64,000 nucleotides of DNA, taken from the NCBI RefSeq assembly GCF_900117415.1, contig NZ_FPEI01000002.1:298558-362557 (forward strand). Direction: 5' to 3'. The DNA is from Hyphomicrobium sp. CS1BSMeth3. GTDB taxonomy: Bacteria > Pseudomonadota > Alphaproteobacteria > Rhizobiales > Hyphomicrobiaceae. The translations under genes were made by a program, and so were the position numbers. How positions within the stretch are numbered: position 1 is the first letter of the stretch; each line of letters starts with the position of its first letter. Shown piece after piece: positions 7,506 to 24,544 of this stretch. The notes beneath the pieces are model-generated. The model was not told the origin of the DNA, ran no database searches, and saw only the letters and a program-made list of their open reading frames with translations.

Positions 7506-7844
7506 TCGGGTATCTCCTCACGCTGTTTCTTTCCGATGCATTCCAGTCCCCAACACCCAAAGTTGCATATGGAGCCTGCGCGGGATGTTTCAACCGCAGG
7601 GCGCGCTAGTGTGATGATCGAGAAATTCGCTACCCCTCGCGGCACGGTATCGAGCGAATTTCTCGATCTGAATCACACTAGCAAGCCTATGATTCTAGTG
7701 TCCCTTTTGATTCCGAAGTTCGCTCGGGACGCCAGCATCGAGGTCATGCGAACTTACGGATAGGGACACTAGCAGCAAGCCTCGCGCCCGTGCGCTGAGT
7801 GGGCTAGAAGAGGCGGTCTCATTGCTCCAAAGGAGTGCTGCTCC
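7506..7844. promoter_or_regulatory. Divergent intergenic region holding a paired-palindrome element
   Basis: A 339-bp region between the minus-strand small gene and the plus-strand GlcG-like gene. Half of it (7606-7772) is the paired-palindrome element described separately. The remainder must contain two divergent promoters, which I could not pinpoint. The element therefore lies upstream of genes on both sides and cannot be acting only as a terminator here. Confidence 0.5.
7606..7772. repeat. Paired-palindrome element, copy 1 (167 bp)
   Basis: Hairpin A (7606-7681) has outer stem CTAGTGTGAT and inner stem GATCGAGAAATTCGC, with a 3-nt bulge (TCA in the stem orientation) in the right arm only. 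Hairpin B (7695-7772) has outer stem CTAGTGTCCC, a 4-nt bulge (TTTT) in its left arm, and inner stem around CCGAAGTTCGC with a few mismatches. Loops are 23-24 nt and the spacer between hairpins is 13 bp. The whole 167 bp recurs in inverted orientation at 24378-24544. Ends are CTAGTGT...ACACTAG. Confidence 0.92.
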
Positions 7845-8270
7845 ATGAAGCTCGCCGTGGCCCAGGGCATGGTCGAAGCCGCCCGCGCTCACGCCCGCCA
7901 GAAGGGCATGAACCCGCTCGTGATCGTCGTTCTCGATGCGCGCGGCGTGCTGAAGGTCGGTATTGCCGAGGATGGCACGAGCCTCCGGCGCGCCGACGTA
8001 GCCACGGGAAAGGCGCACGGCGCACTCGCCATGGGGCTCGGCTCGCGCACACTGCACACCCGCGCGCAGAACCAGCCCTATTTCATCGCGGCCGTAACGC
8101 ACGCCGTTGGCGGCTCGCTCGTGCCTGTGCCCGGCGGCGTTCTCATCCGCACGAAAGAGGGCGAGCTTCTCGGCGCCATCGGCATCTCCGGCGACAGCTC
8201 CGACAATGACGAGGAAGCCGCCATGGCGGGGATCGCCGCTGTCGACCTCGTCGGCGATCCAGGAAGCTGA
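7845..8270 (+). CDS. GlcG/HbpS-family protein
   Basis: A 141-residue single-domain protein of the GlcG/HbpS (DUF336) family, recognised from LVIVVLDARGVLKVGIAEDG near residue 25, the RRADVATGKAHGALAMG helix and the GGSLVPVPGGVLIR strand pair. Family members include haem-binding HbpS and the glycolate-operon protein GlcG; most are uncharacterised, so haem binding is only a possibility. AAAGGAG before the ATG gives a strong start. It ends 7 bp before mutM and is probably co-transcribed with it. Its promoter region contains the first paired-palindrome element. Confidence 0.85.
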   Translation: MKLAVAQGMVEAARAHARQKGMNPLVIVVLDARGVLKVGIAEDGTSLRRADVATGKAHGALAMGLGSRTLHTRAQNQPYFIAAVTHAVGGSLVPVPGGVLIRTKEGELLGAIGISGDSSDNDEEAAMAGIAAVDLVGDPGS

Positions 8271-8277
8271 ACCGCAC

Positions 8278-9150
8278 ATGCCCGAGCTGCCCGAAGTCGA
8301 AACCATCCGGCGCGGCCTCGAGCCCGTGCTCGTCGGCCAGCGTATTGCCCGCGTCGAGCAGCGCCGCGCGGATCTGCGTTTTCCTTTTCCGGAGAACTTC
8401 GGCAAGCGGCTCACGGGCCGCACGGTCGTCACGCTTCAGCGGCGCGCCAAATACCTCCTCGTGCATCTCGACGACGGCACGGTGCTCATCATCCATCTCG
8501 GCATGAGCGGGCGTATCAGCATCACAGGCCAGGGCCAACTCGGCGAGTTCACGCACAATCAAGGCAACCGCAACATCCACGATCATGTCGTGCTGCGCCT
8601 CGGGAGCGGCACCGAGATCGTCTACAACGACCCGCGTCGCTTCGGTCTCATGGATCTTGCGAGCGCCACCACGCTCGACACGCATCCCCTGCTTGCGGGC
8701 ATCGGCATCGAGCCCCTCGGCCCGGACCTCACGCCCGAGTACCTTGCTCGCCATGCGGCCGGCCGCCGCAGCGACCTCAAGAGCTTCCTGCTCGACCAGC
8801 GCATCATTGCAGGGCTCGGTAACATTTATGTTTGCGAGGCCCTTTTCCGCACGCACCTGAAGCCCTCGCGCGCCGCGGCCTGTCTCGCAACGCCGACCGG
8901 CAAGCCGAATGCGCGCACCAGCGCCCTCATTCCGCTTATCAAGGCCGTTCTTGCCGACGCGATCGAAGCCGGCGGCTCGACGCTGCGCGACTATGCGCAG
9001 GCCGATGGTTCGCTCGGCTATTTTCAGCACAGCTTCCAGGTCTATGGGCGCGAAGGAGAGCCTTGCCTGACGCCGACCTGCCGGGGCATGGTGCGCCGCA
9101 CTGTCCAGGGCGGACGCTCGACATTCTTTTGTCCCGTCTGCCAACGCTGA
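8278..9150 (+). CDS. mutM: Formamidopyrimidine-DNA glycosylase (Fpg/MutM)
   Basis: A 290-residue bifunctional DNA glycosylase/AP lyase that removes 8-oxoguanine and formamidopyrimidines. The catalytic N-terminus PELPEVETI (Pro2 nucleophile after Met removal, Glu3) fixes the start at 8278. The H2TH region carries LDQRIIAGLGNIYVCEALF, and the C-terminal zinc finger is complete (CLTPTC then CPVC). The length is normal. It follows the GlcG-like gene by 7 bp and precedes an enoyl-CoA hydratase by 57 bp, a gene order common in Hyphomicrobiales. Confidence 0.98.
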   Translation: MPELPEVETIRRGLEPVLVGQRIARVEQRRADLRFPFPENFGKRLTGRTVVTLQRRAKYLLVHLDDGTVLIIHLGMSGRISITGQGQLGEFTHNQGNRNIHDHVVLRLGSGTEIVYNDPRRFGLMDLASATTLDTHPLLAGIGIEPLGPDLTPEYLARHAAGRRSDLKSFLLDQRIIAGLGNIYVCEALFRTHLKPSRAAACLATPTGKPNARTSALIPLIKAVLADAIEAGGSTLRDYAQADGSLGYFQHSFQVYGREGEPCLTPTCRGMVRRTVQGGRSTFFCPVCQR

Positions 9151-9207
9151 CCACAATCGCGAGCGCCGACGCGCCGTACCAAATCACCGAGAGAAGAGGA
9201 AGCTCCC

Positions 9208-9981
9208 ATGGCCTACACGAACATCATGGTCGAGACGCGCGGCAAGGTCGGCCTTATCACGCTCAATCGGCCGAATGCGCTCAACGCACTCAACGCCGCG
9301 CTGATCTCGGAGCTCTCTCACGCCATCGACGGCTTCGAGGCCGATGACAACATCGGCTGCATGGTCCTCACCGGCAGCGAGAAAGCCTTCGCCGCCGGCG
9401 CCGACATCAAGGAGATGCAGTCCAAGACCTACATGTCCGCCTACAAGGAGGACTTCATTGGGAGCTGGGATCGCGTCGCGCGTGCGAGGAAGCCCGTCGT
9501 CGCCGCGGTCGCCGGCTATGCTCTCGGCGGCGGCTGCGAGCTCGCCATGATGTGCGACTTCATCATTGCCGCCGACACCGCGAAGTTCGGCCAGCCCGAG
9601 ATCAACCTCGGCGTCATGCCGGGTGCGGGCGGCACGCAGCGCCTCGCCCGCTTCGTCGGCAAGGCCAAGGCCATGGACATGTGCCTCACGGGCCGGATGA
9701 TGGACGCCGACGAGGCCAACAAGTGCGGGCTCGTGAGCCGCGTCGTCCCGGCCGACAAGCTCATCGACGAAGCCCTCAAGGTGGCCGATGTCATCGCCGG
9801 CAAATCGACTGTGATCGCCATGATGACCAAAGAATCCGTCAACCGGGCCTTCGAAACCACCCTCGGCGAGGGCATCCGCTTCGAGCGCCGGGTCTTCCAC
9901 GCCATGTTCGCGACCGAGGATCAGAAAGAGGGCATGACCGCTTTCGTTGAAAAGCGTAAACCCAACTTCAAGAATGCTTGA
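9208..9981 (+). CDS. Enoyl-CoA hydratase (crotonase family)
   Basis: A 257-residue crotonase-fold protein with the oxyanion-hole segment [11 protein letters not shown], the second one at [14 protein letters not shown], and the catalytic glutamate region [19 protein letters not shown]. These match short-chain enoyl-CoA hydratases that hydrate trans-2-enoyl-CoA in beta-oxidation. The C-terminal helix carries [16 protein letters not shown], typical of the hydratase branch. RBS AGAGGAAG lies upstream of 9208. In related genomes this gene is usually followed by rpsT and dnaA; here a terminator and rimP follow instead. Confidence 0.95.
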
Positions 9982-10127
9982 GCGGCGCTTATCCCTGGAA
10001 TTCCACGCTTTTTTGCACGCTGCACTGCGAGATTTCCAGGCAAGCCGCCGTTCAATCCTGCAGAAGGCACTTGCAAGGCCGTCCAAGGCTCGCTATCTTG
10101 TGATCGCTCATGATCATCTCAACTCTG

Positions 10128-10162
10128 AGAGTGGGCCCGCAGGGTCCGCTCTTTTTGTTTTT
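10128..10162 (+). terminator. Rho-independent terminator after the mutM-hydratase unit
   Basis: AGAGTGGGCCC and GGGTCCGCTCT pair (two G-U pairs) around a 3-nt loop and are followed by TTTTTGTTTTTG. This is the clearest intrinsic terminator in the window. It separates the mutM/enoyl-CoA hydratase unit from the rimP operon, whose promoter should lie within the next 45 bp or be fed by readthrough. Confidence 0.85.
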
Positions 10163-10205
10163 GTAGCTCTGATCTGGCATTATCGGAAATCGTCATCGGG
10201 CACGG

Positions 10206-10859
10206 ATGGAGCGCTTGAGCGGTCCGGCTGAAGAAGCACGTTTTGTTGTCGAGAACGGTGTAGCGGCGCGCGTGGCAAGCCTCATTGAGCCGGTTCTCGA
10301 AAGCATGGGCTATCGCCTCGTGCAGGTTCGCCAGATGGGCGGCACCGACGCCATTCTCGAGATCATGGCCGAGCGCTTGGACGGAACGATGACGGTCGAG
10401 GATTGCGAGGCTGTCTCGCACGCGATATCGCCGCTGCTCGACGTTCACGATCCCGTCGAGGGCAGCTACCGGCTCCAGATTTCCTCGCCCGGCATTGACC
10501 GTCCGCTGGTCCGCCCCGCTGACTTCGAGCGCTGGGCCGGCTATGAGGCCAAGATCGAGCTGAAGGAACCGGTCTCGGGGCGCAAGCGCTTCCGGGGACC
10601 GATCGAGGGATTTGCCGACGGCGAGGCGCGCATCGAGATCGAGGTGCCGGACGCCGGCCGACAGATCGTCGGGCTGCCGCTCGCGCTCATCGGCTCGGCG
10701 AAGCTCGTGCTGACCGACGAGCTGGTACGGGACACGCTCCGGCGCGCCAAAGGGAATGACACGACGGCCGAAAAGACCGACAAGCCGGCCCGGAAAGATG
10801 CACGAAGCAAAGACGCACGAAAAGATTCGAGACGAACTGACGTCACCAAAGTGAAGTGA
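10206..10859 (+). CDS. rimP: Ribosome maturation factor RimP
   Basis: A 217-residue RimP (DUF150, YhbC-like), needed for maturation of the 30S subunit. The N-terminal domain includes GYRLVQVRQMGG and VEDCEAVSHAISPLLD; the SH3-like C-terminal domain begins after the signature YRLQISSPGIDRPL. A lysine/arginine-rich tail of about 40 residues (PARKDARSKDARKDSRR) extends past the usual family length, as often seen in alphaproteobacteria. It is the first gene of the rimP-nusA-ylxR-infB-rbfA-truB operon; nusA starts 13 bp after its stop. Confidence 0.97.
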   Translation: MERLSGPAEEARFVVENGVAARVASLIEPVLESMGYRLVQVRQMGGTDAILEIMAERLDGTMTVEDCEAVSHAISPLLDVHDPVEGSYRLQISSPGIDRPLVRPADFERWAGYEAKIELKEPVSGRKRFRGPIEGFADGEARIEIEVPDAGRQIVGLPLALIGSAKLVLTDELVRDTLRRAKGNDTTAEKTDKPARKDARSKDARKDSRRTDVTKVK

Positions 10860-10872
10860 AGGGTGCCAAAGC

Positions 10873-12528
10873 ATGGCTCAGGCAGGCATCAGTGCGAACA
10901 GGCTGGAGCTTCTCCAGATCGCGGACGCGCTCGCACGTGAAAAGTCCATCGACCGCAAGATCGTCATCCAGGCGATGGAAGAGGCGCTGCAGAAAGGCGC
11001 CAAGGCCCGCTATGGCGCCGAGAACGATATCCGCTGCGAGATCGACCCGCGCACAGGCGAGACACATCTCTCACGCGTCATGACCGTCGTTGATGTGGTC
11101 GAGAACGAATCCCAGCAGCTCACGGTCGACGACGCCAAGCGCCGCAAGCCCGATGCTCAGGTCGGCGATCTCCTCGTCGACAAGCTGCCCCCGCTGGAGT
11201 TCGGCCGCGTCGCGGCGCAGAACGCCAAGCAGGTGATCGTGCAGAAGGTCCGCGAGGCCGAGCGCGAGCGCCAGCACAACGAATACAAGGATCGCATCGG
11301 CGAGATCGTCAACGGCACGGTGAAGCGCGTCGAGTACGGCAATGTCATCGTCGACCTCGGTCGTGCGGAAGGCATCATCCGCCGCGACGAGATGATCCCG
11401 CGCGAGAACGTGCGCCTCGGCGACCGCATCCGCGCCTATATCTACGACGTGCGCCGCGAGCAGCGCGGCCCGCAGATCTTCCTCTCGCGCACGCGCCCTG
11501 AGTTCATGGCCAAGCTCTTCGCCATGGAGGTGCCGGAGATCTACGACGGCATCGTGCGCATCATGGCGGTCGCCCGCGACCCCGGCTCGCGCGCCAAGAT
11601 CGCCGTTATTTCGCGCGACAAGTCGATCGATCCCGTCGGCGCCTGCGTCGGTATGCGCGGCCAGCGCGTGCAGGCCGTCGTCGCCGAGCTGCAGGGCGAG
11701 AAGGTCGACATCATCCAGTTCCCCGAGAACAACGACGCCGCGACGCTGGTCGTGAACGCGCTCGCGCCGGCGGAAGTGTCGAAGGTCGTGCTCGACGAAG
11801 ACTCCAACCGCATCGAGGTCGTGGTCGCGGAGAGCCAGCTCTCGCTCGCGATCGGCCGGCGCGGCCAGAACGTGCGTCTCGCTTCTCAGCTCACGGGCTG
11901 GGACATCGACATCCTCACGGATCAGGAAGAGAGCGAGCGCCGCCAGAAGGAATTCACCGAGCGCTCGCAGATGTTTATGGAAGCGCTCGACGTCGACGAG
12001 GTCATCGCGCAGCTCCTCGCGACCGAGGGTTTTGCCTCCGCCGAGGAAGTCGCGTTTGTCGATCCTTCGGAGATTGCCCATATCGAGGGCTTCGACGAGG
12101 ATACGGCGACCGAGATCCAGACCCGCGCGCGTGAATATCTCGCCCGCATCGAGGCCGAGCGTGATGCACGCCGCGTCGAGCTCGGCGTGTCCGATGATCT
12201 CGCGAAGATCGAGGGTGTGACGACCGCGATGATGGTCGCCCTCGGCGAAGCCGGCATCAAGACGCTCGAGGACTTCGCCGACTGCGCGACCGACGATCTC
12301 GTCGGCTGGACCGAGCGCAAGAAGGACAAGGACTCCGAGCCCGTGAAGCACAAGGGCGCGCTCGACGGCTTCGAGGTCGGGCGCAAGGAGGCCGAGGCCA
12401 TGATCCTTGCTGCCCGCGTCGAGGCGGGATGGATCAAGGCCGAGGACATCGCGCCGCCGGAGCCGGCGACCGAGGAAACTGCACCGGAAAGCGCTGAGGC
12501 CGGGGCTGACGCCCCCGCCAAGGCCTGA
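10873..12528 (+). CDS. nusA: Transcription termination/antitermination factor NusA
   Basis: A 551-residue NusA. Domain order is N-terminal RNA-polymerase-binding domain (residues 1-130), S1 domain ([20 protein letters not shown]), two KH domains ([18 protein letters not shown] and [19 protein letters not shown]) and two C-terminal acidic AR-type repeats ([19 protein letters not shown] and [19 protein letters not shown]) ending in an Ala/Glu-rich tail. It modulates pausing, termination and antitermination by RNA polymerase. It lies between rimP and ylxR, in the order found across bacteria. Confidence 0.98.
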
Positions 12529-12562
12529 TCCGGATTATGAGGACGGAGCGAACAGACTGGGT

Positions 12563-13303
12563 ATGGGCGCCGAAGCGGCACCAGAGCGTGACATGGACGC
12601 AGGTCCTGCCGACAAGGCAGCGGCCGAGCGCACATGCGCGCTCACGCGCCAGCCGCTGACGCCTGACGAGGGTCTGCGCTTCGTCGTCGCACCGGACGGC
12701 AGCATCGTCCCTGATGTGGGGCGTCGCCTCCCGGGCCGCGGCGTCTGGCTCTCCAACAGCCGTTCCGTCGTCGCCGAGGCGGCCCGCAAGGGCGTCTTCC
12801 AGCGGAGCTTGAAGCGCCCCGTAACGGTGCCGGAAGACCTCCCCGACCTCATCGAAAACTTGCTGGTCAAGCGGGTGATCGAGGCGCTGAGCCTCGCCAA
12901 CAAGGCGGGTCTCGTCACGACCGGCTTTACCAAAGTCGAGATCGCCGTTCAGCGGGGGACCTGCGCCTTTCTGCTGCATGCCAGCGATGCGGCCGAGGAT
13001 GGAGTGTCCAAGCTGGACCGCAAATTTGCGGCAATCCAGGCGAGCTCGGAGGCCGGAAGTGCGGAGAATAGCCTCGAGAAGCCCAATACGGAGCAATTGA
13101 GGCAACTGGTTTGGGATTGCCTGTCATCGGCCGAATTGAGCTTGGCCATGGGGCGTTCGAATGTGGTACACGCTGCACTGGCACGTGGCGGTGCGGCCAC
13201 CAGGTTTTCTCGCGAGGCAGAGCGGTTGAGGCGCTATCGGGCGCCCACTTCCGCTCATGCAACGCGCGAACCGGGTTCAAGGGCGAGATCGGAACAGGCA
13301 TGA
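12563..13303 (+). CDS. ylxR: YlxR (DUF448) RNA-binding protein fused to an L7Ae-like domain
   Basis: About 246 residues. The N-terminal part is YlxR/DUF448 ([20 protein letters not shown], then [11 protein letters not shown]). The second part, from [20 protein letters not shown], looks like the ribosomal L7Ae/L30e fold. This fusion is usual in alphaproteobacteria. YlxR binds RNA and in other bacteria influences RNase P and expression of neighbouring genes. The start is uncertain: ATG 12563 is used, ATG 12593 is possible. The last codons overlap the infB start (ATGA), pointing to translational coupling. The C-terminal 60 residues are basic and poorly conserved in appearance. Confidence 0.93.
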
Positions 13304-15948
13304 GTGAGACCAAGGAAACCCCGGATAAGGCCCCCGCGGCCGGCGCCCGCAAGCCGCTGAGCTTGAAGCGCACTGAGTCTTCCGGGCACGTCCAGCAGAG
13401 CTTCAGCCATGGCCGCAAGAACGTGGTCGTGGTCGAGCGCAAAAAGCGCCGGACGCTCACAGGCCCCGGCCAGGGCGAGGACGAGCCGCGTGGCCGCGCG
13501 GGTGGTGCCGCGACGGCTGGTGGTGCGCGCCTCGGCGATCTTTCCGCGGGTGAGCTCGACGCGCGCCGCAAGGCGCTCGAGCAGGCTGCCGTCGACGAGA
13601 AGATCCGCGTCGAGGAAGAGACCAAGCGCCGCGCTGAAGAGCAGCGTCTCGAAGCCGAGCGCGTGGCTGAGCGCGCCCGTGAGGAAGCTGCTGCTGCCGC
13701 CGCCGCCGCGGAGGCTGCGAAGAAGCAGCCCGTCAGCGAAGCTCCTCCCGCAACACCGGCTCCCGCTGCTCCTGCAGCCCCTGCGGCCGCCGCCGCGCCG
13801 GCTCCGCAGACGACAGCCCGTGCGCCGCAATCACCGGCCAGCGCACCGAAGCCCGCGAGCGGCGCAGGCGCACCCGCCGCGCAGAAGGCGCGCGACGGCG
13901 GTGCCCCCGCGACCGAGACACGCCGACCCGCCGAGACGACAGTCGTCAAGCGGCGCCCGATCGCCGACGAGACGCCGGACGACGATGACCGCAAGAAGAG
14001 GGGCGGCGCCAACCTCAAGGGCGCACCTCGCGCGCCCGTAAAGGTGGCCGACGATCGCCGCGAGCGCGGCAAGCTCACGGTCGACAAGCTTCTCAACGAC
14101 GAGCAGCGCGAGCGCTCGCTCGCATCGCTCCGCCGCAAGCGCGAGCGCGACGCGCGCCGCGCCTCCGGCATCCAGATCTCGCGCGACAAGATCGTGCGCG
14201 AAGTAACGATCCCCGAGGTCATCACCATCCAGGAACTCGCCAACCGCATGTCGGAGAAGTCGGTCGACGTGATCCGCTTCCTGATGAAGCAGGGCGCGAT
14301 GCATCAGATCAACGATGCGATCGATGCCGACACGGCCGAACTCATCGTGCAGGACTTCGGCCACACGCCGAAGCGCGTTTCGGAAGCCGACGTCGAGGAA
14401 GGCTTCGCGGGCGGTGAGGACACGGATGCAAACCTGCAGCCGCGCGCCCCGGTCGTCACGATCATGGGCCACGTCGATCACGGCAAGACGTCGCTGCTCG
14501 ACGCGATCCGCCATGCCAACGTCGCGAGCGGCGAAGCCGGCGGCATCACCCAGCACATCGGCGCCTATCAGGTGTCGACGGACAAGGGCCAGAAGATCAC
14601 CTTCATCGATACGCCAGGCCACGCCGCGTTTACGGCCATGCGCGCCCGCGGCGCCAAGGTCACGGACATCGTCGTGCTGGTGGTTGCCGCCGACGACGGC
14701 GTGATGCCGCAGACGATCGAGGCGATCAATCACGCCAAGGCTGCCGGCGTTCCGATCATCGTTGCGATCAACAAGATCGACAAGCCGCAGGCCGATCCGA
14801 ACCGCGTGCGCACGGAGCTGCTCCAGCACGAGATCGTGGTCGAGAGCATGTCGGGCGAAACGCTCGAGGTCTCGGTTTCGGCACTCAAGGGGACGAACCT
14901 CGACAAGCTGCTCGAAGCCATCGCGCTTCAGGCCGAGCTGCTCGATCTCAAGGCCAATCCGGACCGTCTCGCCGACGGCTTCGTCATCGAGGCCAAGCTC
15001 GAGCGTGGCCGCGGTCCCGTCGGCACGCTGCTCGTGCAGCGCGGCACGATCAAGGTCGGCGACATCATCGTCGCTGGCAGTGCCTGGGGTCGCGTCAGGG
15101 CGCTCCTGGATGACACCGGCCACAATGTCGTGTCGGCCGGGCCGTCCGTGCCCGTAGAGGTGCTCGGCTTCGACACCGCACCCGAGGCCGGCGACCAGTT
15201 CGCCGTCGTCGAGAACGAGGCCCGCGCCCGCGAGATCACCGACTACCGTATCCGCAAGCGGCGCGAGACGCTCGGCACCGCGGGCACACCGCGCACGCTC
15301 GAGCAGATGATGCAGAGCCTCAAGGAGACCGGCAAGAAGGAGTTCCCGCTGGTCGTCAAGGGCGACGTGCAGGGCTCGGTCGAGGCGATCATGGGTGCGC
15401 TTGCGAAGCTTGGCAACGACGAGGTCATGGCGCGCATCGTCCATTCGGGCGTCGGCGGCATCACCGAGTCCGACATCAACCTCGCCAATGCCTCGAAGGC
15501 GGTCATCCTCGGCTTCAACGTGCGCGCCAATGCGCAGGCGAAGCTTGCGGCCGACCAGCACGGCGTCGAGATCCGCTACTACTCGATCATCTACGACCTC
15601 GTCGACGACGTGAAGGCGGCCATGTCCGGCCTGCTCGCGCCGACAAAGAAAGAGGTGTTCCTCGGCTACGCGACCATCAAGCAGGTCTTCAACATCTCGA
15701 AGCAGGGCAAGGTCGCGGGTTGCCTCGTCACGGAAGGCAAGGTCGAGCGCGGCGCCAAGGTTCGCCTGCTGCGCGACAAGACGGTCATCCACGAGGGCAC
15801 GCTCGCCATCCTCAAGCGCTTCAAGGACGATGTGAAGGAAGTGCCGGCCGGCCAGGAATGCGGTATGGCCTTTGCCAACTACCAGGACATCCGCGAGGGC
15901 GACGAGATCGAGTGCTTCCAGGTGGAGACGATCGCGCGCACCCTCTGA
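13300..15948 (+). CDS. infB: Translation initiation factor IF-2
   Basis: An 882-residue IF-2. It starts with the alphaproteobacterial IF2 N-terminal motif ([20 protein letters not shown]), followed by a long Ala/Pro/Glu/Arg-rich linker and the IF2_N segment ([20 protein letters not shown]). The GTPase domain has G1 [10 protein letters not shown]3 DTPGHAAF and G4 NKID; domains III and IV are complete to [12 protein letters not shown]. The factor brings fMet-tRNA to the 30S subunit. ATG 13300 overlaps the ylxR stop by 4 nt. A hairpin follows at 15967. Confidence 0.98.
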
Positions 15949-16514: not shown

Positions 16515-17439
16515 GGTGGCGCGCCGCAAGAAGGGCAATCCGATCAACGGCTGGGTCGTGCTCGACAAGCCCGTCGGTATGACGTCGACGCAGGCTGTCG
16601 GCAAAGTACGCTGGCTCTTTCAGGCGCAGAAGGCCGGGCACGCCGGCACGCTCGACCCGCTGGCGACCGGCATCCTGCCGATCGCACTTGGCGAGGCGAC
16701 GAAGACCGTGCCCTACGCGGTCGACGGCCAGAAGGCCTACCGCTTCACGGTCCGCTGGGGCGCCGAGACCGACACCGACGACGCCGAGGGCCAGATCGTC
16801 GAGCGCAGCGACCTGCGCCCGACCCGCGCTTCGATCGAGGCGCTGCTGCCGAGCTTCCTCGGCGAGATCCTGCAGACGCCGCCCGCCTTCTCCGCGATCA
16901 AGATCGACGGCCAGCGCGCCTATGACCTCGCGCGCCAGGGCGAGACCGTGAAGCTCGAAGCGCGCCCCGTGCAGATCGACCGTCTCGAGCTCGTCGAGAT
17001 GCCCGATCACGAGACCTCGGTGTTTGAGGCCGAATGCGGCCGCGGCACGTACGTGCGCGCCATTGCCCGCGACATCGGCCGCACGCTCGGCTGTCTCGGC
17101 CATGTGACGGCGCTCCGGCGCACGCGTGTCGGGCCCTTCGAGGAAGCACAAGCGGTCACCATCGAGGAGCTGGAAGCTGCGGCTGGCCACGACGACGGCG
17201 GCGCCGAGATCAAGACGCTGCTGCGCCCGGTCGAGAGCGCGCTCGCCGAGCTGCTCGAAGTCAACGTCTCGCAGTCGGATGCGGCGCGCCTCGCGCGCGG
17301 CCAGCCGGTGCTGCTGCGCGGGCGCGATGCGCCGGTGATGAGCGGGGAGGCCTTTGCTCTCTCGAAGGGTACATTGATCGCGCTCTGCGAGATCGAGCGT
17401 GGCGAGCTGCGCCCGCTGCGCGTCTTCAATCAGGCCTGA
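16507..17439 (+). CDS. truB: tRNA pseudouridine(55) synthase TruB
   Basis: A 310-residue TruB that makes pseudouridine 55 in the T-loop of tRNAs. The catalytic aspartate motif is [14 protein letters not shown]; the [10 protein letters not shown] strand, the [20 protein letters not shown] segment and the [13 protein letters not shown] motif are all present, plus a C-terminal PUA-like part. It overlaps rbfA. In most related genomes rpsO and pnp follow; here the operon ends at truB with a 325-bp gap and a convergent pbp1A gene. Confidence 0.97.
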
Positions 17440-17764
17440 TAGCGAGATTATCTCGCCTACGCCGCCTTGGCAGTTCATGAGCGCGCGGGGCGCGCCGGCG
17501 CTGGCGCCGCCCCCGCGGAGCCGATGAGCGAAGCGAATAGCGGCGTGAGCGAAATAAACGCATGAGGCGCGGAGACCCTGGGCTCCGCGCCTCAAATCTT
17601 CACGCCGGGGAAGATGGTTTCTCCAGGGTACACCGATCATGCGCCGGTGGCCGTGAACTCGCTCTGAATGCAGCATTCATTGGGAATTCATTGGGGGGAC
17701 GTCTGCCCTTCGGTGAACGGCCAAGCGCTTGCTTTGGCCGCCGTCCCTGCGGACCGAGTAGCGC
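17440..17764. other. Convergent intergenic gap with one strong hairpin
   Basis: 325 bp between truB (plus) and the PBP1A gene (minus), with no gene I can support. It contains a GC-rich palindromic patch near 17492-17515 and the hairpin listed at 17564-17593. No rpsO gene or remnant was seen, although rpsO-pnp normally follows truB. Confidence 0.5.
17564..17593. terminator. Bidirectional hairpin between truB and PBP1A
   Basis: GAGGCGCGGAG and CTCCGCGCCTC form a perfect 11-bp stem with an 8-nt loop (ACCCTGGG). On the plus strand AAATCTTC follows; on the minus strand GTTTATTTCG follows a few bases later. It lies between two convergent operons and probably ends transcription from both sides. Confidence 0.6.
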
Positions 17765-20356
17765 CTACCAGAGCCCACGCCGCGTGCTGAGCGCGCGCGC
17801 ATCCTCGCCGCGACCACCGCCGCGCTCCGTGCGCGGGGCCCAGCCGCCACCGGGCTGTCCCTGCTGGCCGCCCTCCTGATCGGGCTGCTGCTGCTGCACG
17901 AAGCCGCCGGTCTCGTCGGTGAAGCCGATGATCGAGTAGGGATCATCCGGCTCCTCGTCCGGCTTGAAAGCCTCGAGCACACTGCGCTGATCGGCCGACT
18001 GCACGCGCAGGCCGGTCGACGGGTTCACGCGAACGAGCTTGATGCCGGGCGGAATGCGGAAGGGCGTCGCCGGCTTGTCGGCGAGCGCCATCTTCATGAA
18101 CGAGCCGAAGATCGGCACCGCGATCGCGCCGCCCGTCGCCTCTTTGCCCATGGGCTTCGGGATGTCGTAGCCGACGAACACGCCAACGACGAGGTCCGGC
18201 GAGAAGCCGATGAACCACGCATCCTTGGCGTCGTTGGTGGTGCCCGTCTTGCCGGCGAGCGGCTTGCCGACCGAGCGGAGCGCCGTCGCCGTGCCACGCT
18301 GCACGACGCCCTCCATCATCGAAGTGATCTGGTAGGCCGTGTGCGGGTCGATGATCTGTTTGCGGTCATCGGCAAGCTCGGGCTCCGGCTGGCCGTTCCA
18401 GCTTGCCTGCTGGCAGTCCTGGCATCCGCGATCGTCGTGCCGCCAGACGGCGCGGCCCCAGCGATCCTGGATGCGATCGATGAACGTCGGACGCACCTGG
18501 CGGCCGCCATTGGCGAGCATGGCGTAGCCAGCGGTCATCCTGAGCAGCGTCGTCTCGCCGGCGCCGAGCGCCATCGAGAGGACAGGCGTCAGCTCATCGT
18601 AGACGCCGAAACGGCGCGCATACTCGGTCACGAGCGGCATGCCCATGTCCTGCGCAAGACGCACCGTCATGAGGTTGCGCGAGTGCTCGATGCCGACCCG
18701 CAGTGTCGTCGGCCCATAGAACTGGCCGCTGTAGTTTTTCGGCCGCCACACATCGAGTCCGGCGCCCTGCTCGATGGTGATCGGGGCATCGAGAATCACG
18801 CTCGTCGGCTTGTAGCCATTGTCGAGGGCAGCGGCATAGACGAACGGCTTGAAGGACGATCCGGGCTGGCGACGCGCCTGCGCGGCGCGATCGAACTGGC
18901 TCAGCGCGAAAGAGAACCCGCCGATGCTCGCCAGCACGCGGCCGGTATGCGGATCCATGACGACGATGCCACCGCCGACCTCCGGGATCTGCATGAGCGA
19001 CCACACGCCCTGCGTCTCATCGGGGTTCTTGGGCGCAACGTAGATGACATCGCCGACATTCAGGACATCGCCGGCGCCCGGCGGCTTGCCGGGCTTCCTG
19101 TTGGCCCAGCGGACCTCCTCATAGGGCACCTCGACGGCCTGACGCTCGGGAACGAGGCTGCCGTCCTGGCGGCGTGCCGGCCGCAGCCCAACCACGGCCT
19201 TCTCGCGCTCGGCCTTGAGCACGACCCCTAGGCGCCACGGATGGATATCGTTCGGCGTGTCGATGGCGCCGAGCGGCACGCCCCAGTCGCCCGTGACGGC
19301 AATCTTGTCGACGGGCCCGCGCCAGCCACTCTTGCGGTCGAACGCGACGAGGCCCTCGACGAGCGCGCGGCGCGCGAGATCCTGCAGGCGGGGCGAGAGC
19401 GTCGTGCGGACGGAAAGGCCACCGCTGTAGAGCTTCTGCTCGCCGAACTGGGCGATGAGCGTGCGGCGCACTTCCTCGGCGAAGTAGTCGGCGGCGCGAA
19501 TCTGGGTGCCGAAGTTGCGGACGTTGACCTCGAGCGGCTTGGCCTGTGCTGCAGAGGCTTCGGCATCGGTGATGTAACCGTTCTCGGCCATGAGGGCGAG
19601 GATGGCATTGCGCCGGGCTACAGCCTCCTTGGCCCGCCGGAAGGGATGGTAGTTGTTGGGGCCTTTCGGGAGCGACGCGAGGTAGGCCATTTCCTCGAGC
19701 GTCAGATCCCTCAGCTCCTTGTTGAAATAGGTGAGCGCCGCCGCCGCCACGCCGAACGTGTTCAGCCCGAGGTAGATCTCGTTGAGATAGAGCTCGAGGA
19801 TCTTCTCCTTGGAGAACGACCGCTCGATGCGGATGGCGAGGATGGCTTCCTTGAGCTTGCGATCGGCCGTGCGCTCGCTCGTCAGCAGCATGTTCTTGGC
19901 AACCTGCTGCGTGATCGTGGAGGCGCCTTCCGCACGCCGCCGGCCGCCCTGCGCCAGATTGGTCGCATACCGAAGGCCCGCGCGCGCCATACCCACGAAA
20001 TCGAGGCCGTTGTGCTCGAAGAAGCGCTTGTCCTCCGCCGAGAGGTAGGCGCCGATCAGCAGCTTGGGCACGGTGTTGATCGGCACGAAAATGCGTCTGT
20101 CGTGCGCGTACTCGGCGATCAGCGAGCCGTCATGGGCGTGAATGCGCGTCGTGATCGGCGGCTCGTAGTTGGCGAGGCTCGCATGGCTCGGCAGATCAGC
20201 CGAGGCCTTCCAAAGGAAGTAGCCGCCGACCGCGGAGCCGGCGAGGAAGAGGACCACGCCCGAGGCGAATGCAAACCCGAGGAGGCTCAGCAGAAAGCTG
20301 CGGCGCTTGCGCTTCGGCTTGCGCTCCACGGGCGGCAATATCGGGGGTGGTCTCAT
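17765..20356 (-). CDS. Penicillin-binding protein 1A (bifunctional glycosyltransferase/transpeptidase)
   Basis: An 863-residue class A PBP. A basic cytoplasmic N-terminus is followed by one membrane helix (FAFASGVVLFLAGSAVGGYF). The GT51 domain has EDKRFFEHNGLD and ASTITQQVAKNMLLT; the transpeptidase domain has the Ser-x-x-Lys motif (GSSFKPFVYAAAL), the Ser-x-Asn motif (EHSRNLM) and KTGTT. It polymerises and cross-links peptidoglycan in the periplasm. The final 50 residues are Gly/Gln-rich (QQQQPDQEGGQQGQPGGG), an unstructured tail common in alphaproteobacterial MrcA. It is a single minus-strand gene, convergent with truB. Confidence 0.97.
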   Translation of the reverse strand: MRPPPILPPVERKPKRKRRSFLLSLLGFAFASGVVLFLAGSAVGGYFLWKASADLPSHASLANYEPPITTRIHAHDGSLIAEYAHDRRIFVPINTVPKLLIGAYLSAEDKRFFEHNGLDFVGMARAGLRYATNLAQGGRRRAEGASTITQQVAKNMLLTSERTADRKLKEAILAIRIERSFSKEKILELYLNEIYLGLNTFGVAAAALTYFNKELRDLTLEEMAYLASLPKGPNNYHPFRRAKEAVARRNAILALMAENGYITDAEASAAQAKPLEVNVRNFGTQIRAADYFAEEVRRTLIAQFGEQKLYSGGLSVRTTLSPRLQDLARRALVEGLVAFDRKSGWRGPVDKIAVTGDWGVPLGAIDTPNDIHPWRLGVVLKAEREKAVVGLRPARRQDGSLVPERQAVEVPYEEVRWANRKPGKPPGAGDVLNVGDVIYVAPKNPDETQGVWSLMQIPEVGGGIVVMDPHTGRVLASIGGFSFALSQFDRAAQARRQPGSSFKPFVYAAALDNGYKPTSVILDAPITIEQGAGLDVWRPKNYSGQFYGPTTLRVGIEHSRNLMTVRLAQDMGMPLVTEYARRFGVYDELTPVLSMALGAGETTLLRMTAGYAMLANGGRQVRPTFIDRIQDRWGRAVWRHDDRGCQDCQQASWNGQPEPELADDRKQIIDPHTAYQITSMMEGVVQRGTATALRSVGKPLAGKTGTTNDAKDAWFIGFSPDLVVGVFVGYDIPKPMGKEATGGAIAVPIFGSFMKMALADKPATPFRIPPGIKLVRVNPSTGLRVQSADQRSVLEAFKPDEEPDDPYSIIGFTDETGGFVQQQQPDQEGGQQGQPGGGWAPRTERGGGRGEDARALSTRRGLW

Positions 20357-20638
20357 AAATCTCGATCGATCCGGTCGTGCACGGATGGCTCTGTCTAGCC
20401 CCCGGCGTACGGAGAAGCAAGCACGCCTCCCGGTTTCATCCCGAGGTTACAATCGATTGTGTCATTAGCAGGTCACAGCGGGGTGAATGTCCGCAGCATT
20501 CTGCCGGCCATTGCACAAGACCTGCGCGTGCGTGGTTAATGCGCCTCTGCCCGCCCCCATTTTGTCCATCTTCTTGCTTCGCCGGGCCCCTGGATCGAGA
20601 GTTGGCGCCTCGACGACAGCACAGAATGGGGAAACACC

Positions 20639-21034
20639 ATGGACATCGAGGACCAGCGCAAGAAGGGCCGGGAGATTCTGGGGGAGGTCATCGGCGCCGC
20701 CTATCTCGAGCGGCGCGATGCTTCGACGAACGATTTCAACAGGCCATTGAGAGAGTTTTCCGAAACCTACGCGTTCGGTGACATCTGGGCCCGGCCGGGC
20801 CTGCCGCGCAAGGTCCGCAGCATGCTCTGCATGGCCATGCTGACGGCCATGGGCAAACCCGCCGAGCTGCGCCTCCACGTCAATTCGGCGATCAACAACG
20901 GCTGCACCGTCGAGGAAATCCAAGAGGTGCTCTACCAGACCGTCGCCTATTGCGGCATTCCGGCGACGATCGAGGCCTTCAAGGTCGCCGAGGAGGTATT
21001 GGCCGAGCGCGGCCTTATCCAGCGCAAGGGCTGA
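20639..21034 (+). CDS. 4-carboxymuconolactone-decarboxylase-like protein
   Basis: A 131-residue AhpD-superfamily protein related to 4-carboxymuconolactone decarboxylase: LREFSETYAFGDIWARPGLP, then LTAMGKPAELRLHVNSAINN and YQTVAYCGIPATIEAF. True PcaC acts in the protocatechuate branch of the beta-ketoadipate pathway. No other pca gene is nearby, and these proteins are often side-chain decarboxylases or of unknown role, so the exact reaction is open. A hairpin (GGCCGGCGCGG/CCGCGCCGGCC) follows between this gene and the convergent aminotransferase. Confidence 0.85.
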   Translation: MDIEDQRKKGREILGEVIGAAYLERRDASTNDFNRPLREFSETYAFGDIWARPGLPRKVRSMLCMAMLTAMGKPAELRLHVNSAINNGCTVEEIQEVLYQTVAYCGIPATIEAFKVAEEVLAERGLIQRKG

Positions 21035-21047
21035 CCAAGGCCGGTAT

Positions 21048-21071
21048 GGCCGGCGCGGACCGCGCCGGCCA
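21048..21071. terminator. Hairpin between convergent genes
   Basis: GGCCGGCGCGG and CCGCGCCGGCC pair with a minimal loop between the stop codons of the carboxymuconolactone-like gene (plus) and the aminotransferase (minus). No U tract on either side. Confidence 0.5.
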
Positions 21072-21082
21072 CAATCCAGCAA

Positions 21083-22468
21083 TCAGCCGACAATGCCTTC
21101 CTTGCGGGCCCAGTCGAGGCCGCGGTCGAGGGCGCGCGCCATGCGATCGAACATCGTGTTGACCTGCTCGGTGCTGATGACGAGCGGCGGGCAGAGCGCG
21201 ATCGTATCACCGCCGACGGCACGGCAGATCAGGCCCTCGTCCTGGGCGAAGACGCTCACCTTGGCGCCGACGCCCTGGCGCGGATCGAAGGACTGGCGGC
21301 TCCTCTTGTCCTTCACGAGCTCGATGCCGCCGAGCAGCCCGACGCCGCGCGTCTCGCCGACCAGCGGATGGCTGTCGAACTCCTTCAAACGCTTCAGGAA
21401 AGTCGGCGCCACCTTCTGCACATGGCCGACGATGTCGATGCGCTCGTAGATCTCGAGCGTCTTGACCGCCACGGCCGACGCCACGGGATGACCCGAGTAG
21501 GTAAAGCCGTGGGCGAACATGCCGAGCTTTTTGCTCTCGTCGACCATGGCCTGATAGACGTGCTCGGGCACCGTCACGGCGCCGAGCGGCATATAGGCGG
21601 ACGTGATCGCCTTGGCCATGGACGCCGTGTCCGGCGTCATCCCAAAAGTCTGCGATCCGAACATGTTGCCGGTGCGCGCGAAGCCGCAGATCACCTCGTC
21701 GGCGATGAACGCAATGTCGTAGTGGCGCAGCAGCGCCTGCACCTTCTCGAAGTAGGTCTTCGGCGGCAGGATCACGCCGCCCGCGCCCATGACAGGCTCG
21801 GCGATGAAGGCGGCGATGGTGTCGGCCCCCTCGCGCTCGATCAGGGCTTCGAGCTTGCCCGCAAGGCGCGACGCAAACTCCTCCTCACTCTCGCCGTCCT
21901 TGGCAAAGCGCCAGTAGTGCGGCGTATCAGTGTGCAGGATGCCCGGGATCGGCAGGTCGAAGTCCGCGTGGAAGATCGGAATGCCGGTCAGGCTGCCGGA
22001 GCCGATCGTCACGCCGTGGTAGGCGCGCAGGCGCGAGATGATCTTCTTCTTGTTCGGCCGCCCAATGGCATTGTTGTAGTACCACTGGAGCTTGATCTGC
22101 GAGTCGTTGGCCTCGCTGCCCGAGCTCGTGAAGAACACTTTCGAGGTCGGGCAGGGCGCGATCTCCTTGATCTTTTCCGCGAGCTGGATGGCCGGCTCGT
22201 GGCTGCGCCCGCCGAAGAGGTGCGTGAACGAGAGCTTCCTCATCTGATCGGCTGCCGCGTCGACCAGCTCGGTATTGCCGTAGCCGAGACCCGTGCACCA
22301 CAGTCCAGCCAGGCCCTCGATGTACTCCTTGCCCGCCGCATCCCACACGTGAATGCCCTCCGCGCGCTCCAGCAGCATGGGGCCGGTCGTGCGGTGCGAG
22401 GCGAGGTTGGTCGCCGGATGCAGCAGCGTCTCGACGTCGCGGGCGGCAAAGTTGGTGAGCGTAGCCAT
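21083..22468 (-). CDS. Class III (omega) aminotransferase, PLP-dependent
   Basis: A 461-residue fold type I, class III aminotransferase. Visible features are the PLP phosphate-binding turn (FFTSSGSEANDSQIKL), the aspartate contacting the PLP nitrogen in AFIADEVICGF, and the Schiff-base lysine in MAKAITSAYMPLGAVTV. The family uses omega-amino donors such as beta-alanine, putrescine or GABA with pyruvate or 2-oxoglutarate as acceptor; specificity cannot be read from sequence alone. ATG 22468 gives the expected N-terminus; the extra 38 residues that an upstream start would add are not typical. It lies divergent from the DUF1499 gene. Confidence 0.92.
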   Translation of the reverse strand: MATLTNFAARDVETLLHPATNLASHRTTGPMLLERAEGIHVWDAAGKEYIEGLAGLWCTGLGYGNTELVDAAADQMRKLSFTHLFGGRSHEPAIQLAEKIKEIAPCPTSKVFFTSSGSEANDSQIKLQWYYNNAIGRPNKKKIISRLRAYHGVTIGSGSLTGIPIFHADFDLPIPGILHTDTPHYWRFAKDGESEEEFASRLAGKLEALIEREGADTIAAFIAEPVMGAGGVILPPKTYFEKVQALLRHYDIAFIADEVICGFARTGNMFGSQTFGMTPDTASMAKAITSAYMPLGAVTVPEHVYQAMVDESKKLGMFAHGFTYSGHPVASAVAVKTLEIYERIDIVGHVQKVAPTFLKRLKEFDSHPLVGETRGVGLLGGIELVKDKRSRQSFDPRQGVGAKVSVFAQDEGLICRAVGGDTIALCPPLVISTEQVNTMFDRMARALDRGLDWARKEGIVG

Positions 22469-22616
22469 TGCGCCTATGTCCTGTTCTTGACGGGAACCGC
22501 GACTATGAGTAGCGCGGACGGGGCGGCTGACAAAGCCGATAAGGGCTGTGGAGCGCACAACGTTTGCGCACTTTGCAGTCAAAGATGCCGGTCACCTGGG
22601 ACGATCCGCCGACGCC

Positions 22617-23549
22617 ATGACGCTGGCTGCCTCAATGCCCCGGACGAAGTTCGCGACAACGGCGCGGCGCATTGCCTTGTTCAGCGCCGTGCTCATCCTG
22701 CTCGCGCTCGTCCTGCACAGGCTTGGCCGCATCGAGACGCCGCTCGCCATCGGCCTCGTGCTCACGGGATTTGCGGGGGCGGGCCTGGCGCTCATCAGCG
22801 GCATTGTGGCCGGCATCGTGATCTGGCGGAAGGGCTCGGCTGGCGCATGGAGCGCCGCCGCCGGTGTGGCAATCAGCCTTGCGATTTTCGCATGGCCTGC
22901 GAGCGTCGCTCCCATCTTCTTCAGGCTGCCCCCGATCAACGACATCACGACGGATCCCGAGCACCCGCCCGAGTTCGCCGCACTCGCCCGCGACCGGCCG
23001 AAGGCGGCGAACTCGATCGCCTACCATACGAACTTCGCCGAGATGCAGGAGCGCTACTACCCTGAGGTCCGCCCGCTGATCCTCGATCGCGCCGCCGAAG
23101 AAGTCTTCGACGCGGTCGGCGAGGCCGCGCGCCGTCTCAAATGGCGCATTGTCACCGAAGAGCCGCCGCAGGCTGACGGCACCGCCGGTCACATCGAGGC
23201 CGAGGACCGCACGCTCATTCTCGGCTTCACGGACGACGTGGTCGTGCGCGTCGAGAACGACGGCGGCTCGACCCGCGTCGACATCCGCTCGCTGTCGCGC
23301 TACGGCCACCACGACTTCGGCCGCAATGCGAGCCGCATCAAGGAATTCTACGCGGAGCTGCGGGCGCGGCTCGACGCCACCGTTCCGACCGCTGCCGCGC
23401 CACGCGGCAAAGCCAAGGCGCGCGGCACGAAGGTGCCGACTAGGGCACGGAAAGGCGCACAGGATCCAGCACAGGCCCCTCGCAGCGGAGCAGGCCCCGC
23501 TCAACCAGATGCTCGACGTGCGCTGCCACAGAAAGGGACGCGGCCTTGA
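22617..23549 (+). CDS. DUF1499 membrane-anchored protein
   Basis: About 310 residues. Three hydrophobic segments fill the first 110 residues (ALFSAVLILLALVLHRLG, AIGLVLTGFAGAGLALISG, VAISLAIFAWPASVAPIFF), followed by a soluble DUF1499 domain with DITTDPEHPPEFAAL and GFTDDVVVRVENDGGSTRVD-like segments ending in a conserved-looking phenylalanine-rich helix. DUF1499 proteins have no established function. The start is uncertain (ATG 22617, ATG 22635 or GTG 22548; none has a strong RBS). The basic, low-complexity C-terminus (KAKARGTKVPTRARKGAQ) runs 110 bp into the convergent MBL-fold gene, so the two 3' ends overlap antisense. Confidence 0.8.
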   Translation: MTLAASMPRTKFATTARRIALFSAVLILLALVLHRLGRIETPLAIGLVLTGFAGAGLALISGIVAGIVIWRKGSAGAWSAAAGVAISLAIFAWPASVAPIFFRLPPINDITTDPEHPPEFAALARDRPKAANSIAYHTNFAEMQERYYPEVRPLILDRAAEEVFDAVGEAARRLKWRIVTEEPPQADGTAGHIEAEDRTLILGFTDDVVVRVENDGGSTRVDIRSLSRYGHHDFGRNASRIKEFYAELRARLDATVPTAAAPRGKAKARGTKVPTRARKGAQDPAQAPRSGAGPAQPDARRALPQKGTRP

Positions 23550-24351
23550 CGAGTCTCGGGTCGATCCCGCGATAGATCACGGCGACGATTTCCGGGATCG
23601 TCGTCTGCCCGTTCTTGACGCATTCGAGGATGGACTGCTCGCGCATGCGCCGGTGCAGAATGTAGGCCTTCACGAGCCGTTGCGGCTCGTACACGCGCCC
23701 GCCGTGTCCCGGGAAGTAGATCTCGTCATTACGCTCGAGCAGGCGCTCCATCGCCCCGAGATAGGCGCTCATGCTGCCCTCGGGCGGCGCGACGACGCTC
23801 GTATTCCAGCCCATGACGTGATCGCCCGAGAAGAAGAGCCGCGTGCCTTCGAGCGCAAAGCAGAGATGGTCCGGCGCGTGGCCCGGCGTGTGCAGGGCCT
23901 GCAGCGCGAAGTCGCTGCCCTCCAGGCGGTCGCCGTCCTTGAGCACGATATCGGGCCTGAAATCATTCTCCACGTACTCGCCGCCGGCCGGGCTCGATTT
24001 GGTGCGGCCGGGGTTGGCGACCGTACGGCCGAAGCCCGCCGTCAGCGCGCCCGTGCGCTCCCTGAGCGCATCGAGGCCATCGACGTGGTCGTGGTGCGTA
24101 TGCGTGATGACGATGTGCGTAAGTTTGCGGCCCTGGAGCGCGGCAAGGATGGCGTCGAGATGCGCCGCGTCGGCTGGACCCGGATCGATGAGAAATACCT
24201 CGCGGCCCTCGCCGAGGAGATAGGTGTTCGTGCCCTTGTAGGTGAACGGGCTCGGGTTGTTGGCGACAATGCGCACGATGCCCGGCGCGAGCTGTTTCGC
24301 CTCGCCATAAGCGAACTCGATTTCTTTGCGGAAGGGCAGCTCTTCGGCCAT
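23440..24351 (-). CDS. MBL-fold metallohydrolase (LACTB2-like)
   Basis: A 303-residue metallo-beta-lactamase-fold hydrolase with the metal motif THTHHDHVDG, further ligands at HTPGHAPDH, SGDHVMGWN and PGHGG, and a C-terminal winged-helix-like extension (LVERGLLRCEG) as in LACTB2-type proteins. The animal homologue is an endoribonuclease; bacterial members are mostly uncharacterised, so only hydrolase is claimed. Its start is followed upstream by a paired-palindrome element. Its 3' end overlaps the DUF1499 gene by 110 bp. Confidence 0.9.
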   Translation of the reverse strand: MAEELPFRKEIEFAYGEAKQLAPGIVRIVANNPSPFTYKGTNTYLLGEGREVFLIDPGPADAAHLDAILAALQGRKLTHIVITHTHHDHVDGLDALRERTGALTAGFGRTVANPGRTKSSPAGGEYVENDFRPDIVLKDGDRLEGSDFALQALHTPGHAPDHLCFALEGTRLFFSGDHVMGWNTSVVAPPEGSMSAYLGAMERLLERNDEIYFPGHGGRVYEPQRLVKAYILHRRMREQSILECVKNGQTTIPEIVAVIYRGIDPRLVKAASLSVAAHVEHLVERGLLRCEGPVLDPVRLSVP

Positions 24352-24377
24352 CTGGTGTGTCCTGCGCTCACGTCAAT

Positions 24378-24544
24378 CTAGTGTCCCGATTCCGAAGTTC
24401 GCCAAACCTCGATGCTGGTGTGCCGAGCGAACTTCGGAATCAATGGGGACACTAGAATCACAATTTTACTAGTGTGATTCAGATCGAGAAATTCGCTCCC
24501 TACTGTGCCGCGAGAGGCGGCGAATTTCTCGATCATCACACTAG
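24378..24544. repeat. Paired-palindrome element, copy 2 (167 bp, inverted relative to copy 1)
   Basis: The reverse complement of this stretch matches 7606-7772 closely over all 167 bp. Here hairpin B comes first (24378-24455: outer CTAGTGTCCC, inner GATTCCGAAGTTCGC, 4-nt bulge in the right arm), then a 13-bp spacer, then hairpin A (24469-24544: outer CTAGTGTGAT, 3-nt TCA bulge in the left arm, inner GATCGAGAAATTCGC). In both copies the bulges sit on the two arms facing the spacer. It lies between the stop of the class D beta-lactamase and the start of the MBL-fold gene (both minus strand). Confidence 0.93.

Follow-up and report, generated by a model that had tools for sequence, protein, structure and literature searches.

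Two inverted palindromes that behave as one mobile unit are known from bacteria as REPINs, doublets of repetitive extragenic palindromic (REP) sequences, with a REP-associated tyrosine transposase, RAYT (Bertels and Rainey 2011, PMC3116915; for TnpA-REP, PMC8266576). According to the portions of these papers that deal with the repeats, the inverted imperfect palindromes form a non-autonomous unit, which is intergenic, occurs in high copy number, has a bulge in the stem in case of the E. coli REP and carries a four-base tag at the foot. The same features were found in a 167-bp element that is present twice, in inverted orientation, in 64,000 nucleotides of contig NZ_FPEI01000002.1 (positions 298,558 to 362,557, forward strand) of Hyphomicrobium sp. 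CS1BSMeth3; “window” refers to this whole stretch. The palindromes of REPINs, as given there, are 20 to 50 nt long and preceded by GTAG, whereas the hairpins of the element were mostly 75 to 79 nt long with CTAG at both feet, the spacer between them had a nearly constant length of 13 nt, CTAG was found on both sides after insertion, and no match to the RAYT domain Y1_Tnp occurred in the genome.

Miniature inverted-repeat transposable elements (MITEs) of the DDE type are small, non-coding and equipped with inverted repeats and direct four-base repeats at their borders, as is the element, but they possess one pair of terminal repeats instead of two separate bulged hairpins, and no partner insertion sequence was found for the element. 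The Rhizobium intergenic mosaic element (RIME) consists of two large palindromes and has a length of about 106 to 109 bp. Judged by this general description, RIME and the element are both intergenic repeats of the Hyphomicrobiales but differ in length; RIME and the AB/C palindromes are named as such repeats in the relevant section of PMC2573895. The abundant CGTC-tagged REPs (Di Nocera and colleagues 2013, PMC3733652) also occur in alphaproteobacteria, are often dimers and apparently have no dedicated transposase, but they are 20 to 40 bp long with CGTC as tag, and no word starting with CTAG is contained in the available text of that paper. Br-REP1 and Br-REP2 of Bradyrhizobium, which belongs to the same bacterial order, are palindromic intergenic repeats as well, but the short consensus sequences given for them in the excerpt of PMC5082802 are without CTAG ends. 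A CTAG-ended double-hairpin element was not described among the top matches listed from the open-access literature.

REPINs are the nearest relatives of the element in architecture. The element appears to work like a REPIN or a MITE and was filed as neither, because a GTAG-tagged short palindrome and a RAYT were looked for and not found. We interpret each copy as a unit of a non-coding two-hairpin mobile family that inserts at CTAG and is likely moved in trans by an enzyme that would recognize folded single-strand hairpins, and assign to this interpretation a probability of roughly 60%. The repeat family has defined boundaries, full and empty sites, a four-base register of insertion, a nested insertion and covarying stems.

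Structure, copies and range of the element

The two copies in the window are composed as follows.

7606..7772, plus strand: element copy 1, hairpin A, 13-nt spacer and hairpin B, CTAG at each outer end, from the sequence
7606..7681, plus strand: hairpin A of copy 1, 76 nt, from sequence and folds; outer stem 7606-7615/7672-7681, inner stem 7616-7630/7654-7668, bulge TGA 7669-7671, loop 7631-7653
7682..7694, plus strand: spacer of copy 1, 13 nt, CAAGCCTATGATT
7695..7772, plus strand: hairpin B of copy 1, 78 nt; outer stem 7695-7704/7763-7772, bulge TTTT 7705-7708, inner stem 7709-7723/7748-7762 (interrupted), loop 7724-7747
24378..24544, minus strand: element copy 2, A-to-B on the minus strand, genome coordinates C4:322935-323101
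24469..24544, minus strand: hairpin A of copy 2
24456..24468, minus strand: spacer of copy 2, 13 nt
24378..24455, minus strand: hairpin B of copy 2

Positions, the 167-bp size and the inverted arrangement agree with a preliminary description of the window, and copy 2 was recovered with 87% identity by a search with copy 1. Most of the hairpin layout given in that description is also correct: the CTAGTGT/ACACTAG ends, the 13-nt spacer, the 10-bp outer stems that open with CTAG, the one-sided bulge of 3 nt (A) or 4 nt (B) on the spacer-facing arm and the loops of 23 to 24 nt. A clean inner stem of 15 bp applies to three of the four hairpins of the window; that of hairpin B in copy 1 is broken, its 3' arm being GCGAACTTACGGATA, and variants of this kind were seen again in further copies. 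Four hairpins of this type were present in the window and none in 100 shuffles. Folding of copy 1 as a single strand yielded z-values of −9.9 with DNA parameters and −8.3 with RNA parameters. No Rfam model reached its gathering score in the window, which gave no sign of a known structured RNA family.

The genome assembly comprises 6.02 Mb on six contigs. By the UbiE protein encoded beside copy 1, its closest named relatives belong to Hyphomicrobium, with no more than 71% identity, in a list from which records of this genome may be absent. In the search with copy 1, 40 of 150 candidates were scored (copy 1 itself and 39 others), all of them full or nearly full-length with at least 87% identity, and 34 further matches were half-length on the opposite strand. 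A pattern that considers only the ends and is blind to folding found 38 pairs with exact ends (1 with the reversed pattern as control) and 93 single hairpins with exact ends (control, 1). A hairpin detector was applied to about 0.79 Mb of this genome and about 0.79 Mb of the congener G004, plus the window, which is also the sequence examined for insertion sites below, and returned 67 distinct non-overlapping pairs for the former and 30 for the latter. The genome bears at least 67 copies of a small non-coding two-hairpin family. The preliminary description had allowed for a chance local duplication, should neither further copies nor covariation be found; the copy number rejects this explanation, and covariation was strong.

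The 31 pairs from 20-kb stretches of the genome and the window had a spacer of 13 nt in 30 cases and of 12 nt in one, and both bulges pointed inward in 29 of them. In 20-kb stretches of G004, the spacer was 13 nt in 25 and 14 nt in two of 27 pairs, all with inward bulges. All loci together contained 315 distinct paired hairpins, 301 of them 75 to 79 nt long, with a bulge of 3 nt in 158 and of 4 nt in 139, and a loop of 22 to 25 nt in 299. The loop of hairpin B, for example at loci L028 and L037, may contain GGGACACTAG, a copy of the right end of the element itself, and one copy (L314, C5:1004934) was apparently shortened to this right-end copy within the B loop. Fourteen listed solo hairpins were inspected by eye: four were unrelated, eight had a decayed partner at a distance of 13 nt and two a cut-short partner, so that solo hairpins as termini of a larger element were rejected.

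Selection for the structure, as proposed in the preliminary description, is supported by covariation in the stem sets and in 39 copies of the genome, and by the pattern of diversity. Pairing was intact in 94.6% of the cells of the 201 stem sets, all distinct, a fraction biased by the fold-requiring detector that supplied them; these sets contained 91 pair types, compared with 65.2 in 200 shuffles of arms between hairpins (maximum, 72), and 871 double-change cells, compared with 280 (maximum, 366). In the 39 copies from the genome, which were picked by similarity or by their ends, 97.9% of the cells paired (shuffles, 96.8%); double changes occurred at 8 pairs, compared with 1.9 after shuffling, and none of 500 shuffles reached 8. 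Mean diversity among 38 A-B copies of the genome was 0.06 to 0.14 in the stem arms, except for one of the eight (0.01) that had served to select these copies, 0.09 and 0.22 in the bulges, and 0.25 to 0.29 in loops and spacer. At four orthologous pairs, 20 changes in 428 positions of stems and bulges stood against 28 in 241 positions of loops and spacers (p = 0.0015, a 3-base bulge gap counted as 3). Hairpins at C2:1005667, C2:919799 and C2:1850069 had turned into perfect palindromes by gain of a second bulge copy or by loss of the bulge, which looks like one arm copied from the other.

A covariance model built from 39 copies was used to search 40 genomes; scoring covered no more than 71 candidates in any genome, which makes the copy numbers lower bounds. 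These searches with the copies and the two-hairpin model, which the preliminary description had proposed, yielded the many copies given above and matches in 18 of the 24 genomes of the same family (Hyphomicrobium sp. CS1BSMeth3 included), but in none of the 16 genomes from other families of the order. In the matching genomes of other genera, the stem sequences differ while the geometry is the same, and differing hairpin types combine. The zero outside the family reflects the limit of the model's reach, because divergent relatives exist on plasmids of other genera. Among the matching genomes, the three-contig genome G011 has about 30 element places; at one of them (G011:C2:894925-895253, L257 and L260), two elements stand head to tail with one common CTAG, identical A hairpins and different B loops.

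These divergent relatives, which have CTAGTGG at their ends and share the layout of the element, were found on plasmids of the alphaproteobacterial genera Agrobacterium, Rhizobium, Ochrobactrum, Martelella, Aminobacter and Sphingobium; the detector accepted four of these seven loci as pairs, and the remaining loci were judged by eye. The spacer of the Agrobacterium relative, CAAGTATATGATT, is similar to that of copy 1. Among 72,556 plasmid records, copy 1 matched one, the Agrobacterium relative 8, the Ochrobactrum relative 7 and the Martelella relative 16, none of these four queries matched a Sinorhizobium record, and one divergent family member had no match. Copy 1 did not match any of the phage records searched. 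Scans of viral contigs (6, 42 and 50 stretches) revealed both hairpins folding as a pair in four contigs (L328, L331, L332 and L333), and the remaining stretches were chance-like or contained a single hairpin.

Occupied and empty sites

Evaluation of a site required that both 500-bp flanks of one of the 97 pairs matched side by side in the examined sequence of the other congener. Of the 29 testable rows, 23 were empty and 6 shared (15 of 17 rows from Hyphomicrobium sp. CS1BSMeth3 and 8 of 12 from G004 were empty). When four rows judged paralogous or rearranged were removed (C3:581613 with 60 to 69% identity; the rearranged C5:771611, C5:771892 and G004 C4:493947), 20 of 25 were empty, and the five shared rows represented three distinct sites. 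The sites of both window copies are empty in G004, and that of copy 1 is also without the element in G001 and G003. The window in turn contains an empty site for an element of G004:

21056..21061, no strand: empty site for the element carried by G004 (C10:39825-39991), from flank comparison

Relative to the joined flanks, the length of the empty sites differed by −26 to 27 bases; a surplus of exactly four was most frequent (7 of the 23 rows, or 6 of the 20 that remained after the removal). The four-base word at the empty site was CTAG in 4 of the 23. The element at C5:1007558 is bordered by CTAG on the left and CTCG on the right, and its empty site has CTCG. Of the 39 A hairpins of the genome in alignment A1 (columns 3/77), 7 combine an outer CTCG with an inner CGAG, so that both partners have changed within the target word itself, and the same pair is broken in 7 others. 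A double change of this kind is what selection of the target by the inner word would predict.

Two further cases come from mobile DNA. On a plasmid of Martelella sp. NC18 (L321, 2952-3120), a relative splits a gene for a group II intron reverse transcriptase. An uninterrupted sequence of Rhizobium leguminosarum matches the Martelella flanks in 85 of 94 positions, and one word, TCAG, takes the place of CTAG-insert-CTAG; the uninterrupted sequence of Sinorhizobium meliloti matches in 73 of 94. The phage-like contigs L331 (element at 2534-2701) and L333 (3844-4172) come from different IMG records, are 94 to 99% identical where aligned and have terminase-like genes as judged by eye. L333 contains the resident element of L331, without a difference in the 79 bases to the left and the 89 to the right of the junction, plus a second element of 161 bases at the inner CTAG, and this nested insert has CTAG on both sides. 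The two contigs represent the states before and after insertion of one element into another at CTAG, which is the clearest case of mobility. CTAG on both sides may result from a duplication of the target, or the element may insert 3' of CTAG and bring a terminal CTAG of its own, and both lead to the same arrangement.

The family is mobile. The preliminary description had suggested a search for empty sites and had offered a non-autonomous mobile element, an RNA structure or a protein-binding site as explanations; the first is the only one of the three that was backed, by the polymorphism between congeners, the insertion into the group II intron gene and the nested insertion.

Gene neighbors were predicted with a home-made gene finder, and 92 of the 97 pairs had neighbors on both sides. 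These sites were located between tandem genes in 67, divergent genes in 16 and convergent genes in 9 cases, and none was inside a predicted gene. Gaps between same-strand genes were somewhat over-represented (67/92 versus 663/1,084 intergenic gaps, p = 0.03), convergent sites were not enriched (9/92 versus 186/1,084, p = 0.08), and the orientation relative to tandem genes was 36 to 25 (p = 0.20). Context and orientation reject a transcription terminator as the general role, in agreement with the argument of the preliminary description against simple termination. For 29 of the 97 elements, the TAG stop codon of a gene lay within the outer CTAG (A end, 16 cases; B end, 14 cases); among genes away from elements, 114 of 1,452 ended in CTAG. 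A stop codon within CTAG would be a harmless landing place. The A-to-B direction was on the C-rich strand in 67 of 105 cases (p = 0.006). Separately, 19 of the 24 best-scoring A-to-B places listed for contigs C1 and C2 of G011 were on the plus strand (p = 0.007).

Copy 1 is situated in a divergent intergenic region and copy 2 between genes of the same strand.

6477..7256, minus strand: ubiE-type methyltransferase gene, left of copy 1 (Pfam PF01209)
7845..8270, plus strand: HbpS-like gene, right of copy 1 (Pfam PF03928)
23440..24351, minus strand: metallo-beta-lactamase-fold hydrolase gene, adjoining copy 2 (Pfam PF00753)
24597..25352, minus strand: penicillin-binding transpeptidase-domain gene, other neighbor of copy 2 (Pfam PF00905)

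The last gene presumably resembles a class D beta-lactamase, judged by eye from STFK and KTG motifs. In region 23440-26284, this transpeptidase-domain gene is flanked by two metallo-beta-lactamase-fold genes, one assigned by Pfam and one by eye.

The mover and competing explanations

Candidates for the enzyme that moves the element were sought with protein models. Y1_Tnp (PF01797), the domain of RAYT and of the Y1 HUH transposases of the IS200/IS605 type, had no match in the genome, so that the RAYT partner considered in the preliminary description was not found there, and none in the element-bearing genomes G001 to G004, G006, G009, G010 and G011; a control search matched 5 of 14 known genomes. 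DDE_Tnp_1 (PF01609), rve (PF00665) and DDE_3 (PF13358) had no match in the genome or in G011, while IS110, IS66, IS256, Tn3 and similar families were outside this search. Among element-bearing genomes, DDE_Tnp_1 matched in G002, G004, G006, G007 and G018, and rve in G004. IS481 targets NCTAGN. It was rejected as mover, since the IS481 model (NF033577) gave one match over 72 of 284 positions in the genome and none in G011 or G002. A hidden multi-copy insertion sequence was rejected too, as 750 predicted proteins from 0.86 Mb of the genome contained a single tandem pair with at least 75% identity. The window has a tandem pair of similar small proteins with signal-like starts and 83% identity at 42418-43277. 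The listed recurrent clusters beside the elements were common housekeeping or regulator families.

In a classical MITE, a DDE insertion sequence duplicating CTAG (or TA) would have supplied the outer 20 to 25 bp as its terminal inverted repeats, and two adjacent inverted-repeat units would account for the hairpins. The four-base register and CTAG at both borders fit such a target duplication, and the outer ends share a TGT...GAARTTCGC-like consensus. This explanation is nevertheless unlikely: the inner arms should then drift freely, yet they remain complementary through many stem types; C5:1007558 needs an additional mutation under simple duplication; and the DDE-type and IS481 searches described above argue against it within their scope, no autonomous relative with the same ends having been found with PF01609, PF00665 and PF13358 (this genome and G011) and NF033577. 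A strict REPIN, moved by a RAYT that was lost from this genome or is too divergent to be detected, must be regarded as still more improbable. The lack of a PF01797 match in nine element-bearing genomes, although the control search works, speaks against it, as do the tag, CTAG instead of GTAG, and the length of the hairpins; moreover, TnpA-REP is reported in the pertinent part of PMC8266576 to act on the REP of one strand only, whereas CTAG is located here at both feet of each hairpin. The inverted pair that is present or absent at a site as a whole, the intergenic location, the copy number, the bulged stem and the four-base foot tag are those of a REPIN, and Y1_Tnp matches exist in the element-bearing genomes G007 (one, with an internal stop codon) and G013 (two), so that a Y1 mover may be present elsewhere in the family.

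A host function such as a bidirectional terminator, a stabilizer of mRNA 3' ends or a binding site for nucleoid proteins, duplicated and selected with mobility only incidental, has very little probability. It would explain why stems are better conserved than loops at orthologous sites, why no site is inside a gene and many touch a stop codon, and the slight excess of same-strand gaps; but most testable sites differ between congeners, orientation and convergent sites show no preference, and copies are located in divergent regions and in phage-like and plasmid DNA.

Several observations also weigh against a mobile family that inserts at CTAG and is read as folded single strands. In 19 of the 23 empty rows the word is not CTAG, due to divergence or poor alignment. 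The bias in strand that single-strand transposition should cause is weak and uneven, being carried by Hyphomicrobium sp. CS1BSMeth3 (40/59) and G011 (17/23) and absent in G004 (10/23). The Y1_Tnp matches of G007 and G013 belong here as well. The listed clusters of 638 predicted proteins near elements contained no recombinase-like recurrent neighbor, and 46 loci (138 kb) around transposase hits, those of Y1_Tnp in G007 and G013 included, held no element pair. Judged by their nearest-copy identity (best, 95.8%; median best, 90.5%), no two copies in the genome are nearly identical, so that very recent movement there is not indicated. The bias of the detector affects the paired fraction of the 201 stem sets but neither the ends-only pattern nor the 39-copy alignment. 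Finally, the fewer stem changes at orthologous sites suggest constraint after insertion or arm-to-arm repair, which is not predicted for a purely selfish element; intact hairpins may be kept by the host, repaired between arms or favored by the detector.

Proposed mechanism and its meaning

Inserting at CTAG, a unit of the two-hairpin family would leave CTAG on either side. The mover should act in trans by reading the folded hairpins of one DNA strand, and the unit would travel as single-stranded DNA. The folded single strand is probably what the mover reads, since inner arms that have strongly diverged in sequence are still complementary; the covariation of the 201 stem sets fits single-strand recognition and does not prove it. 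The one-sided bulge, nearly always on the inner arm, could distinguish the outer, active arm from the inner, inactive one. For IS200/IS605 and REP systems, both a stem bulge and a guide of four bases are described as important (PMC8266576, PMC6006769). The enzyme probably belongs to none of the types Y1, rve, DDE_Tnp_1 and DDE_3. Insertion mostly between genes, often into a CTAG that includes a TAG stop codon, may be nearly harmless, by which a high copy number could be reached. A role for the host after insertion is possible but would be secondary.

A more far-reaching proposal is tentative and doubtful at present: the elements might represent a widespread alphaproteobacterial class of double hairpins, the mover being a transposase or host enzyme of a type so far not connected with the movement of DNA, which would read the folded shape plus CTAG, so that stems could diversify if both arms change together and the class could thrive without the usual transposase domains.

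With exact borders, a four-base target, full and empty sites, a strongly constrained structure and no known mover, the element is a clean and testable orphan. Identification of the mover would add a new branch to single-strand, HUH-like transposition or reveal a host enzyme at work, and the family could account for many intergenic hairpins that may be mistaken for terminators or small RNAs.

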